DNA from: Providencia zhijiangensis
GTDB lineage: Bacteria; Pseudomonadota; Gammaproteobacteria; Enterobacterales; Enterobacteriaceae
Length of the DNA stretch: 64,000 nt
Reading direction: 5' to 3'
Assembly: GCF_030315915.2 (NCBI RefSeq)
Contig: NZ_CP135990.1
Span: 2,790,001 to 2,854,000, forward strand
In this document: positions 24,822-28,517 of the stretch, in pieces
Position numbering within the stretch: the first letter of the stretch is position 1
Layout of the letters: every line of letters begins with the position of its first letter
Notes under the pieces: generated by a model
Databases searched by the model: none
Seen by the model: only the letters and a program-made list of their open reading frames with translations
What the model was told of the DNA's origin: nothing
Program-made: the position numbers and the translations under genes

Positions 24822-25297
24822 TAGAATTTATCAGCACTCAACCCGTCTGGTTTTGGCTATGTCTTGGGGGATTACTGCTGATTGCTGAACTTCTTGGCAC
24901 AGGTGGCTACCTACTTTGGTCCGGCATTGCCGCCGTCACCGTTGGAGTGCTCACCTTTGCATTGCCATTCCTCAGTTGGGAATGGCAAGGTATCTTATTT
25001 GCGGTATTTACCGTCGTTTCTGCGATTTTATGGCGAAAATGGCTCAGTCACCGCAAAGCCAGCCGTGCCGATGATGTCAATCAAATCAGCCACCAGCTGG
25101 TTGGTGTCAGGGCACGCTTGCTAACTGATACCGAAGAGGGGTTTAGCCGCGTGCGCCTCGCCGATGGCAGTTGGCGCGTATACAGCGACGTCCCATTAAA
25201 AGCGGAAGCTGAAGTGGAAGTGACCGCCGTGGACGGAAACACCCTAAAAGTTAAGCCTTACCATGGTGACAACAGCCACGCGCCAGATGGTCAATAA
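24818..25297 (+). CDS. ybbJ: NfeD-like membrane protein YbbJ
   Basis: This 159-residue protein has two or three N-terminal transmembrane helices ([53 protein letters not shown]). A C-terminal OB-fold domain follows: [47 protein letters not shown]. It is the usual partner of the SPFH protein upstream, with which it overlaps by 4 nt. Its last 47 nt overlap the 3' end of the convergent cueR gene. Confidence 0.92.
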
Positions 25298-25661
25298 TCG
25301 GGCAGTCTGCCCCTTCATCACCGGGGCAGACATCCACTAATTCTTGTAACGTATCTCGAATAGCCGACAGCTTTAAAATCGTCTGCTGAATTTCATCAAT
25401 TTTCGCTATCGTCGCACTTTTCACATCCGCACTGTGGCGGCTTGGATTACGAAACAATCCCAGTAATTCCCCGCACTCGTCCAGCGTAAACCCCACATCT
25501 TTGGCTTGCTTTAAAAGCATCAGCTCATCGAGATGTCTGGCTTGATAATAGCGATAACTATTATCCCCGCGTTCCGGTGGTGTGATCAGCCCTTTATCTT
25601 CATAAAAGCGAATTGCTTTAGCTGTCAGACCGGTTTTTTTGGCAATTTCACTAATATTCAT
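25251..25661 (-). CDS. cueR: Copper(I)-responsive MerR-family activator CueR
   Basis: This 136-residue MerR-type regulator has a winged HTH at [20 protein letters not shown], a dimerisation helix around residues 80-110, and the metal loop [13 protein letters not shown] with Cys112 and Cys120, the Cu(I)/Ag(I) ligands at the same numbering as E. coli CueR. The trailing GCCHH motif is also kept. It is divergent from copA and 117 bp from it, with the CueR site between them. Its 3' end overlaps ybbJ. Confidence 0.97.
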
Positions 25662-25669
25662 AATTCCCC

Positions 25670-25700
25670 TTGACCTTACCCTTGTGGGAAGGTTTAACCT
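25670..25700 (+). promoter_or_regulatory. CueR-dependent copA promoter
   Basis: TTGACC (25670-25675) and TAACCT (25695-25700) are separated by 19 bp, the overlong spacer typical of MerR-family promoters. The spacer contains the dyad ACCTTACCC / GGGAAGGT (within 25673-25693), almost the same as the E. coli copA site. CueR should bend this DNA to allow transcription when Cu(I) is bound. Confidence 0.9.
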
Positions 25701-25778
25701 TAACTACATAGCGGATTATAGACTGATTTTGTGTACAAATTATAGCCCCTCGTTATGAGAAGGCCCGGAGAATCAAAA

Positions 25779-28517
25779 ATGAAAATAATTCTATCCTTAC
25801 AAGGTTTGAGCTGCATGCATTGCGTCGGCTCCGTGACAAAAGCACTGCAAGCACGCCCTGATGTTGAATCGGTCAACGTCACTATTGATTACGCGGTAAT
25901 TGAAAGTAGCGCTAGCGTCGAATCCCTCATTCAAACCATTGTTGATGCGGGTTATGAAGCCACTGAAGCGACTGCGCCAAATGTTGAATTGCAACTCTCT
26001 GGCTTAAACTGCATGAAATGCGCAGGGAAAACCCAGCAAGCATTAGAAGCGGTTGAAGGCGTTGCTGCTGCGGTTGTAGATACTCAACTGGCGAAAGTTT
26101 ATGGCACTGCCTCTGCAGCGGATTTAATCGCAGCGGTAGAAGGCGCAGGATTCCACGCAGAACTTGCCCAAGAAGGTGCTAGCTCCCCAAAAACTGAGCC
26201 GCTGAAGACATCAATTGAACAGCCGGAAACGGGTTCAGCGGCAGTTTGCGATATTCCGGCACAAGAGTCTGACCTCGGCGAACAACCTGACATTGCCGTG
26301 ACCGATGACAGCATTCAATTATTACTCGATGGCATGACCTGCGCCAGCTGCGTCAGTAAAGTGCAAAAAGCACTTAATAGCGTACCTGGCGTGGAAAACG
26401 CACGAGTGAACTTAGCGGAACGCAGTGCTTTAGTCACTGGAACTGCGAAGCCCGATGACCTCGTTGAAGCTGTTGTAAAAGCCGGTTATGGCGCTGAAAT
26501 CATCCAAGATGAAGCCAAGCGCCGTGAACGCCAGCAAGAAATCGCGCAAGCTAATATGCGCCGCTTCCGTTGGCAATCTGCGCTAGCCCTTGCTTTAGGT
26601 GTGCCCGTGATGATTTGGGGGATGATCGGCGACAACATGATGTTAAGCGCTGATAACCACAACATTTGGCTCACTATTGGGGTGCTAACGCTGCTGGTGA
26701 TGATTTTTGCAGGTGGGCATTTTTATCGCAGTGCATGGCAAAGTTTAAAAAATGGCAGCGCCACCATGGATACCTTGGTTGCCTTAGGTACTGGTGCGGC
26801 TTGGCTCTACTCGATTGTCGTCAATATTTGGCCTGAGATGTTCCCAGAACAAGCTCGCCATCTTTATTACGAAGCCAGCGCCATGATCATCGGTCTGATT
26901 AACTTAGGTCATGCCCTTGAGCAGCGCGCACGCCAGCGTTCCTCCAAAGCCTTAGAGCGATTGTTGGATTTAACGCCACCAACGGCCCGCGTTGTCACCG
27001 AACAAGGGGAAGTCGATATGCCCCTTGCTCAAGTGAAACAAGGCATGGTTTTACGCTTAACCACTGGGGATCGTGTCCCTGTCGATGGCGAAATCATTGA
27101 AGGCGAAGTGTGGCTGGATGAAGCTATGCTAACGGGTGAGCCTATCCCGCAGCAAAAAAGCCGTGGCGATGCAGTACACGCAGGAACTGTTGTGCAAGAT
27201 GGTACCGTGTTATTCCGCGCTGCCGCTGTGGGTAGCCAAACCACGTTAGCGCGTATTATTCACTTAGTCCGCCAAGCGCAAAGCAGTAAACCGCAAATCG
27301 GGCAATTAGCGGACCGTATTTCGGCAGTGTTTGTCCCTGTTGTGGTAGCTATTGCAGTGATTTCAGGGGCAATTTGGTATTTCGTGGGCCCGGCCCCGCA
27401 AATTACCTACGCGCTGGTTATCACGACCACGGTACTGATTATTGCCTGCCCGTGTGCTTTAGGTCTTGCAACGCCGATGTCAATTATATCTGGTGTCGGT
27501 CGCGCTGCAGAATTTGGGGTATTGGTGCGTGATGCGGATGCACTACAACAAGCTAGCGAACTTGATACCATCGTCTTTGACAAAACGGGTACCTTAACTG
27601 AGGGTATGCCACAAGTTACTGATATTCACCTGTTCAACGGCTTTAATGAATCACAAGCTCTGCAATTTGCGGCGTCCCTCGAAAGTGGCTCTAACCACCC
27701 GCTGGCTCGTGCAATTGTTAGCCGAGCAAAAGGTCTGGATATTGTTGCCAATCAGCAATTTAGGACTTTGGCTGGATTAGGTGTCACCGCAGTTGTTGAG
27801 GGTAAAACCGTTTTACTCGGCAATCAGAAACTGCTGGCTGAAAACCAGATTGATACCCGTGAAATAGATGAAACGCTCCATCAGCAAGCGTCTCTTGGGG
27901 TTACGCCAGTGCTATTGGCGGTTGATGGTCAGATTGCGGCACTGCTGTCTATTCGCGACCCATTGCGTGAAGATAGTGTTAGCGCCCTCGCCCGTCTGCA
28001 TAAACAAGGCTTCCGCTTAGTGATGTTAACCGGGGATAACCCAGTCACAGCCAAAGCGATCGCCAAAGAGGCGGGAATTGACGAAGTGATTGCGGGGGTG
28101 ATGCCAGACGGAAAATCTGCTGCAATTGAAGCTTTGCAAGCCAAAGGTCATAAAGTGGCAATGGTGGGTGATGGTATCAACGATGCTCCCGCTCTCGCTC
28201 GCGCTGATGTCGGGATTGCCATGGGTGGCGGCAGTGATATTGCGATTGAAACTGCGTCAATTACCTTGATGCGCCAGAGTCTACACGGCGTTGCAGATGC
28301 AGTGTCTATCTCCAAAGGAACTCTGCGTAATATGAAACAGAACTTGTTTGGGGCCTTCGTGTATAACTCGCTAGGTATTCCGATTGCTGCCGGTATTTTA
28401 TACCCAATTACTGGTACGTTATTGAACCCTGTTGTGGCAGGAGCCGCCATGGCGCTCTCTTCCATTACCGTAGTCAGCAACGCCAACCGTTTATTACGTT
28501 TCAAACCTGAAAAATAG
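25779..28517 (+). CDS. copA: Cu(I)-exporting P1B-type ATPase CopA with three metal-binding domains
   Basis: This 912-residue inner-membrane pump moves Cu(I) from cytosol to periplasm. Three N-terminal HMA domains carry GLSCMHC (Cys12/15), GLNCMKC (Cys78/81) and GMTCASC (Cys188/191). E. coli CopA has two. The ATPase core follows: LTGEP actuator loop, [13 protein letters not shown] transmembrane metal site, [11 protein letters not shown] phosphorylation site, SNHPLA nucleotide-binding His-Pro, and [13 protein letters not shown] chose ATG 25779 for its GGAG site 8 nt upstream and family fit. An upstream frame from 25755 adds eight residues without a ribosome site. A predicted -1 frameshift signal lies between HMA2 and HMA3. 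Confidence 0.97.
26186..26242 (+). promoter_or_regulatory. Predicted programmed -1 ribosomal frameshift signal in copA
   Basis: The heptamer C CCA AAA (26186-26192, in-frame codons tcC CCA AAA) fits the X XXY YYZ slippery rule. After a -1 shift the next codons are AAC TGA (26192-26197), an immediate stop. Five nt after the heptamer begins a perfect 9-bp stem, GCCGCTGAA (26198-26206) / TTCAGCGGC (26234-26242). Its loop contains a small CCG-GAAA-CGG hairpin. The product would be residues 1-138 plus Asn: two HMA domains without the pump. E. coli copA uses C CCA AAG after its first HMA domain to make the chaperone CopA(Z). Function here is inferred. Confidence 0.75.

Follow-up and report, generated by a model that had tools for sequence, protein, structure and literature searches.

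The copA gene of Providencia zhijiangensis, analysed here within a 64,000-nucleotide stretch of the genome (the window), very probably carries a programmed −1 ribosomal frameshift of the CopA(Z) type. Ribosomes on copA would reach the heptamer C CCA AAA while a pseudoknot hinders them; in a fraction of these ribosomes the two tRNAs would re-pair one base back, on CCC AAA, add an Asn residue and stop at TGA, releasing a 139-residue protein whose two complete HMA domains would form a soluble copper chaperone. The remaining ribosomes would make the 912-residue pump with its three HMAs, so that both proteins would arise in a set proportion from one transcript, which is probably CueR-controlled. 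What we infer in this scheme is that slippage occurs in P. zhijiangensis itself, how often it does so, how the stimulator acts and that the product serves as a chaperone; the elements on which it rests, and their conservation in relatives, are described below.

The copA gene and its slip site

The protein encoded by the gene matches the NCBIfam equivalog model for CopA, NF007952, at 1606 bits (cut-off 1316), and Pfam finds in it E1-E2_ATPase, Hydrolase and three HMA stretches (Table 1). The ORF is open over 25755–28517, from an ATG at 25755; the ATG at 25779 appears the likelier start because it is better spaced from an upstream GGAG. The product of the divergent cueR gene scores 177.4 bits against TIGR02044 (CueR, cut-off 147.4) and 190.7 bits against PRK10227, which is under that model's cut-off of 244. 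The probable promoter region of copA (TTGACCTTACCCTTGTGGGAAGGT...) presumably resembles the E. coli copA promoter. Both the gene and its site are orthologous to those of E. coli, as indicated by the NF007952 match and the tree of ATPase parts, and by a quick HMA tree that carries no support values.

Around the heptamer, the copA frame reads TCC CCA AAA ACT GAG, with CCA and AAA as codons 137 and 138 from ATG 25779, while the −1 frame reads CCC AAA AAC TGA. A first-pass annotation of this DNA had proposed an in-frame C CCA AAA in copA with a −1 stop one codon on, a perfect 9-bp stem 5 nt 3' of the heptamer and a position after HMA2, all of which are found at the positions listed in Table 1. It had also predicted a 139-residue product ending in Pro-Lys-Asn, and the reading frames agree: counted from ATG 25779, the −1 product would have 138 + 1 = 139 residues, with the C-terminus ...SSPKN. 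Since the PF00403 domains lie where they do, the site falls after the second of three HMAs, and HMA2, ending at 26156, is complete before the −1 stop.

Table 1. Features of the copA locus, in window coordinates.
Feature	Position	Strand	Basis
cueR, Cu(I)-responsive MerR-type regulator, divergent from copA	25251..25661	−	TIGR02044
Probable CueR-controlled copA promoter region (TTGACCTTACCCTTGTGGGAAGGT...)	25670..25709	+	read from sequence
copA, Cu(I)-exporting P-type ATPase, three HMA domains	25779..28517	+	NCBIfam NF007952, Pfam
HMA1 (GLSCMHC), predicted chaperone part	25791..25958	+	PF00403, 43.7 bits
HMA2 (GLNCMKC), predicted chaperone part	25989..26156	+	PF00403, 36.8 bits
Slippery heptamer C CCA AAA	26186..26192	+	in copA frame; conserved
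−1 frame stop TGA	26195..26197	+	kept at equal place in 164/175 distinct family-level sequences
Predicted pseudoknot stem 1, 5' arm GCCGCTGAA	26198..26206	+	comparative
Predicted pseudoknot stem 2, 5' arm GCCGGAA, inside stem 1 loop	26222..26228	+	comparative
Predicted pseudoknot stem 1, 3' arm TTCAGCGGC	26234..26242	+	covariation
Predicted pseudoknot stem 2, 3' arm TTCCGGC	26254..26260	+	covariation
Last HMA (GMTCASC), remains on transporter	26325..26489	+	PF00403, 67.4 bits

Conservation, constraint and a predicted downstream pseudoknot

Within the genus, the heptamer and a near −1 stop are found together in 20 of 24 genomes, with two HMAs before the site in seven of them and three in 13. 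Of the four exceptions, G020 (locus L228) keeps the heptamer, with the −1 stop shifted to index 10 and the ORF broken, G017 and G007 have lost the ATPase part of copA, and G016 gave no match. In L228 copA is split into two open frames of 390 and 635 aa, and the same genome has further HMA ORFs of 245, 338 and 73 aa.

The wider survey was restricted to loci found by protein similarity, excluding those found by pattern (L256–L293). It yielded copA in 244 loci, 185 of them distinct over 480 bases; 175 of these represent family f1 together with 80 named Enterobacterales loci, and ten come from other families of the order. In the family-level group, 164 of 175 sequences have the heptamer and stop, four are role-swapped (see below) and seven have neither arrangement. 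The ten sequences from other families include one with the site, L242 (67% identical, A AAA AAG), and none was seen in the nine more distant members of the order (38–48% identical). Over the resulting 165 sites the −1 stop is TGA in 105 and TAA in 60, and it remains in place behind the alternative heptamers A AAA AAA of L231 (G170) and A AAA AAG of L242 (G185). Counted by a CxxC expression rather than by Pfam, the HMA motifs before and after the site number 1/1 in 98 of the 164 sequences, 2/1 in 44 and 3/1 in 22. The first-pass claim that the site lies after HMA2 instead of HMA1 is therefore right for the window, and is better put as a general rule: wherever found, the site precedes the last HMA, with one HMA after it and one, two or three before. 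A pattern scan made independently of the survey found CCCAAARNNTRRNCCGYTG in 229 of 392 family genomes and 81 of 154 genera; many of the non-matching genomes are reduced, a few matches are off-target, and the same pattern written backwards, as a control, matched 14 genomes.

The seven unswapped sequences without heptamer plus near stop are L027, L074, L081, L198, L200, L229 and L230. In L027, L074 and L229 (a longer copy of L059) C CCA AAA is kept and the near stop is absent; the upstream HMA is gone from L198, and L200 shares just 40% identity. The next −1 stop comes at index 26 in L074 (Xenorhabdus kozodoii) and at index 20 in L229 (G155), so that slippage, should it still occur there, would give the product a longer tail. 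The Moellerella loci L081, L052 and L227 (the last two from G150) have lost the heptamer though three HMAs precede the linker, and their HMA2 and HMA3 are near-identical. In L078, L080 and L084 (Xenorhabdus, Morganella) the upstream HMAs are fewer or partly missing, consistent with domain loss.

Constraint at synonymous sites was measured in 29 Morganellaceae copA genes (the window and L065–L092), aligned by codon according to their proteins, as the codon identity among pairs with the same residue, relative to each pair's own mean, in windows of nine codons. The slip site is the top of 907 such windows, with an observed-to-expected ratio of 2.08 against a mean of 1.01 (sd 0.19). CCA and AAA are each present in 28 of 29 genes; the codon before CCA ends in C in 28, though its amino acid varies, and the codon after AAA ends in T in 27, while CCG, CTG and, in the 3' arm of stem 1, GCG are each found in 28. 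The heptamer exception is L081 (Moellerella), and L074 has ACG at the T-ending codon. The first-pass annotation had suggested an alignment of this kind as a check, and its proposal passed: the heptamer is kept in the alignment, and the paired stem is kept in relatives with compensatory changes.

The structure behind the slip site appears, from comparison of relatives, to be an mRNA pseudoknot. Stem 1 has nine perfect pairs in the window and starts 5 nt after the heptamer. On 100 representatives its pairs are formed in 87.8% of cells, with changes on both sides in five of nine pairs, and those of stem 2 in 91.0%, with such changes in seven of eight pairs, stem 2 being counted in this comparison with one pair more than it has in the window. 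Taken together, both stems show standard pairs in 89.3% of cells and changes on both sides in 12 of 17 pairs. Cells with changes on both sides number 69 against 24.3 in shuffles, which do not keep relatedness (none of 500 reached the observed number), and structures with their partners slid along, which do keep it, were 18–55% paired. The constancy of the 5' arm of stem 1 partly reflects how the sequences were chosen, because the pattern by which the representatives were picked contains much of that arm; stem 2 is unaffected. A script run over 156 distinct sites (one of which, L290, is off-target) found stem 1, and in most of them stem 2, whose usual partners are the stem 1 loop and a stretch ~18 nt past stem 1. 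In roughly a dozen of the 156, Morganella copies among them, the best second stem lies elsewhere. As an example of the paired changes, Proteus has AACTGGAA/TTCCAGTT near the place of the window's GCCGGAA/TTCCGGC.

A heptamer in one gene carries little weight of its own. In-frame X XXY YYZ heptamers occur 75 times across 49 window ORFs, 12 of them, counting that of copA, followed by a −1 stop at most three codons on, and synonymous shuffling of copA gave some such heptamer with a −1 stop within three codons in 527 of 2,000 sequences, or one of the CCCAAAZ or A-run type with a close −1 stop in 249. The lone heptamer is therefore not significant and was dropped as evidence from a single gene. The pseudoknot structure is rarer by chance: under synonymous resampling the observed score was reached by stem 1 in three of 2,000 cases, by stem 2 in 28 and by both in none. 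Rfam gave no family match, its two hits lying far under gathering scores and being taken as chance. Transcriptional slippage, which needs a long homopolymer run, was ruled out, the A runs being too short (five A in the window and three in the enteric CCCAAAG copies).

These observations also bear on other readings of the site. Chance, or constraint on the protein through a conserved Ser-Pro-Lys-Thr-Glu-Pro-Leu linker, could make the heptamer, stop and stem incidental; the frequency of heptamer plus stop in the shuffles agrees with this, as does the conservation of Pro-Lys and Pro-Leu as residues. Yet the C-ending codon before Pro-Lys is kept despite a varying residue, CCA, CCG and CTG are fixed against their synonymous codons, the stop is maintained as either TGA or TAA and the stems have changed in a compensatory manner, so that we give this reading hardly any credence. 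Ribosomes could instead be made to pause by a conserved pseudoknot lying between domains, which would slow translation there without useful frameshifting. Such a pause, however, could do without conservation of the slippery heptamer or of the −1 stop, and the role-swapped genes need a change of frame to join their HMA and ATPase frames; a regulatory structure of this kind is highly improbable.

As to the form of the stimulator, the first-pass annotation had placed a small GNRA-type hairpin in the loop of stem 1, and CCG-GAAA-CGG is indeed present there. A stem with this nested hairpin and no pseudoknot is the minimum-energy fold of the window sequence, as computed by a program that cannot show pseudoknots, and the folding itself was nothing unusual (z −0.15). 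Over 100 sequences, however, the three pairs of the hairpin are formed in 42.7% of cells, against 91.0% for the competing stem 2 with its many changes on both sides, and the outer pair in seven of the 100 sequences. The hairpin was consequently rejected as a conserved element, and a stimulator of that form seems very unlikely; the predicted pairing with 26254–26260 is conserved in its stead. The interval annotated, which ended at 26242, was too short, as the second arm of the pseudoknot lies outside it. A programmed frameshift at a slip site followed by a pseudoknot remains the reading we prefer.

Apparently role-swapped copies and the fate of the HMA domains

In four genomes of two lineages, copA appears to have its roles swapped (L218 and L219 in G137 and G174, L220 in G129 and L221 in G027). 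These copies have one base fewer between the heptamer and the stem; frame 0 takes in the HMA domain and stops three codons past the Lys (CCA AAA TTG AGC CGC TGA in G137). From CCC AAA onwards, the −1 frame is the open ATPase frame, which extends over ~780–795 codons to the normal end. The heptamer and both pseudoknot stems are retained. The simplest reading of these sequences is that the same −1 slip would here make the pump. The case matters for the window too, since a swapped gene would be expected to last only where slippage at the site is truly frequent.

In a maximum-likelihood tree of 42 ATPase parts, the two swapped pairs fall in separate starred clades with standard genes beside each, and the four other searched members of the genus of G137 and G174 (G171, G172, G173 and G175) are standard. 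Among the nearest named relatives of the window copy is P. rustigianii (93% over 700 columns). Between G027 and G129, whose ATPase frames are 84% identical in DNA, the ATPase frame has a dN/dS of 0.148 at a dS of 0.56 and the chaperone ORF one of 0.255; between G137 and G174 the ATPase frame gives 0.072 at a dS of 0.048, and the chaperone ORFs 0.638 on a dS of 0.016, a divergence too small to show selection. Swapped ATPases compared with standard congeners gave 0.053–0.055, and two standard ones 0.060. The ATPase in the −1 frame of the swapped genes is intact, and these ratios place it under purifying selection.

The swapped genes might still make their ATPase by re-initiation at an internal start, or be pseudogenes or assembly errors. 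The G027/G129 clade does also hold decay, since the ATPase frame of G126, which shares the swap, is broken and HMA1 has been lost from G049; ahead of the last HMA motif, L218 and L219 offer ATG, GTG and TTG codons, including one GTG with a purine-rich stretch upstream, so that re-initiation may occur in these two, and their chaperone ORFs are the ones too similar to be informative. On the other hand, the swap is present in both assemblies of each pair (G137 with G174, G027 with G129), dN/dS for the ATPase is low in both pairs, L220 and L221 have no common start codon between the slip and the last HMA but an ATG within the HMA motif, and all keep the heptamer and both stems. We therefore think this explanation, which concerns the swapped genes only, unlikely, and take a frame change at the slip site as the better account of them.

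Further swapped copies were sought with a five-base-spacer pattern, which gave 38 matches in 37 of 392 genomes, 30 of them with loci. By tblastn, three of these 30 (L281, L283 and L285, from G137, G129 and G027, and so among the swapped copies described above) contain the region of copA from the last HMA to the membrane part. L284 (G126) is the broken copA copy; L256, L261, L275, L278 and L280 were rejected on reading, none being copA. Swapped copies with another stem would escape this pattern, because CCGCTGA is fixed in it.

The genome of P. zhijiangensis has four PF00403 matches at E ≤ 0.001, three in copA and one in a 785-aa ORF that is presumably ZntA-like, and this search found no stand-alone HMA gene. 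HMA tables likewise show no stand-alone HMA ORF in any of 13 genomes that have the site and lack a second CopA-like ORF (G000, G002, G010, G021, G035, G048, G080, G105, G115, G119, G160, G170, the A AAA AAA variant, and G173); G008 and G101, which do have a second CopA-like ORF, have one. An expectation that genomes without the site would carry a free copZ was unmet in G150 (Moellerella), G155 and G125, which have neither heptamer plus near stop nor a stand-alone HMA ORF; the chaperone product is thus not indispensable everywhere. Where the ATPase part has been lost, in two genomes of Providencia, a cueR-like gene stands beside a 139-residue two-HMA ORF without ATPase (G017, L202:1075–1494, + strand) or a 76-residue one-HMA ORF (G007, L203:1072–1302, − strand), and each has elsewhere another two-HMA ATPase ORF and a small HMA ORF (68 or 102 aa). 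These cases show, at the level of open frames, that the N-terminal part of copA can persist as a separate ORF. In the quick HMA tree (15 genes), first, second and last HMAs are broadly separate across genera, with the single upstream HMA of E. coli and the third HMA of Proteus in the first class, and the single upstream HMA of G055 in the second; on these placements, the set of HMA domains ahead of the fixed site seems to have changed over time by gain and loss.

Relation to known systems

The copA frameshift is likely to be an evolvable switch, in which the slip site and pseudoknot stay fixed while upstream HMAs are gained or lost, and in which the roles of the frames were swapped at least twice by a one-base change, frame 0 then giving the chaperone and −1 the pump. 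Such a swap could persist only where the slippage rate lies close to one that supplies enough of both products. The survey points to frameshifting in E. coli copA as a single instance of an element with wide conservation, from which chaperones of one, two or three HMAs may be released by a cut ahead of the last HMA. The role-swapped copies amount to natural experiments and suggest, from sequence alone, slippage frequent enough for either product. Standard gene callers would presumably take the swapped genes for broken ones and overlook the chaperone in the rest.

Meydan 2017 and Drees 2017 reportedly describe the CopA(Z) frameshift of E. coli; in literature searches that covered neither of these two, no paper on multi-HMA products or on the role swap was found. 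Frameshifting of the dnaX type also cuts a protein short, through a −1 slip onto an early stop codon; the event predicted for the window copA would be alike in this, though the gene is unrelated. Unlike the dnaX type, the role-swapped copies resemble elements whose shift makes a longer protein. The tandem HMAs of B. subtilis CopA (1p6t, 2rml) and ATP7B (2ew9) are likewise two linked HMAs and match the predicted product in sequence, but are by name parts of pumps and no natural free products.

Stand-alone CopZ, for example that of Enterococcus hirae, is an HMA-fold copper carrier serving CopA, as described in PMC7558416; it has its own gene and a single domain of ~70 residues, whereas the predicted product in the window lies inside copA and has two domains. 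A frameshift has also been claimed for human ATP7B, another copper ATPase with several HMAs. Its re-examination found it unsupported, with <0.5% in unfused reporters and no synonymous constraint (PMC9548414); in copA such constraint is strong.

The closest system is the programmed −1 frameshift that makes CopA(Z) in E. coli copA, as described in PMC7558416, PMC5009743, PMC6747150, PMC10187127 and PMC9548414, and there the nascent peptide has been reported to stimulate the shift (PMC7558416). The E. coli locus in our set (L096) has a C CCA AAG heptamer, a −1 stop at the equal place and the same two stems. The two genes are orthologous and alike in a site before the last HMA, in C CCA AAR, in the place of the −1 stop and in the pseudoknot stems. 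They differ in that E. coli has one HMA upstream, a 70-residue product and a heptamer ending in G, whereas the window has two HMAs, a predicted 139 residues and a heptamer ending in A. By its sequence, then, the element in the window is the known CopA(Z) element with a predicted two-HMA product; what is new, as far as could be seen, is the variation in domains across the family and the swap of roles.
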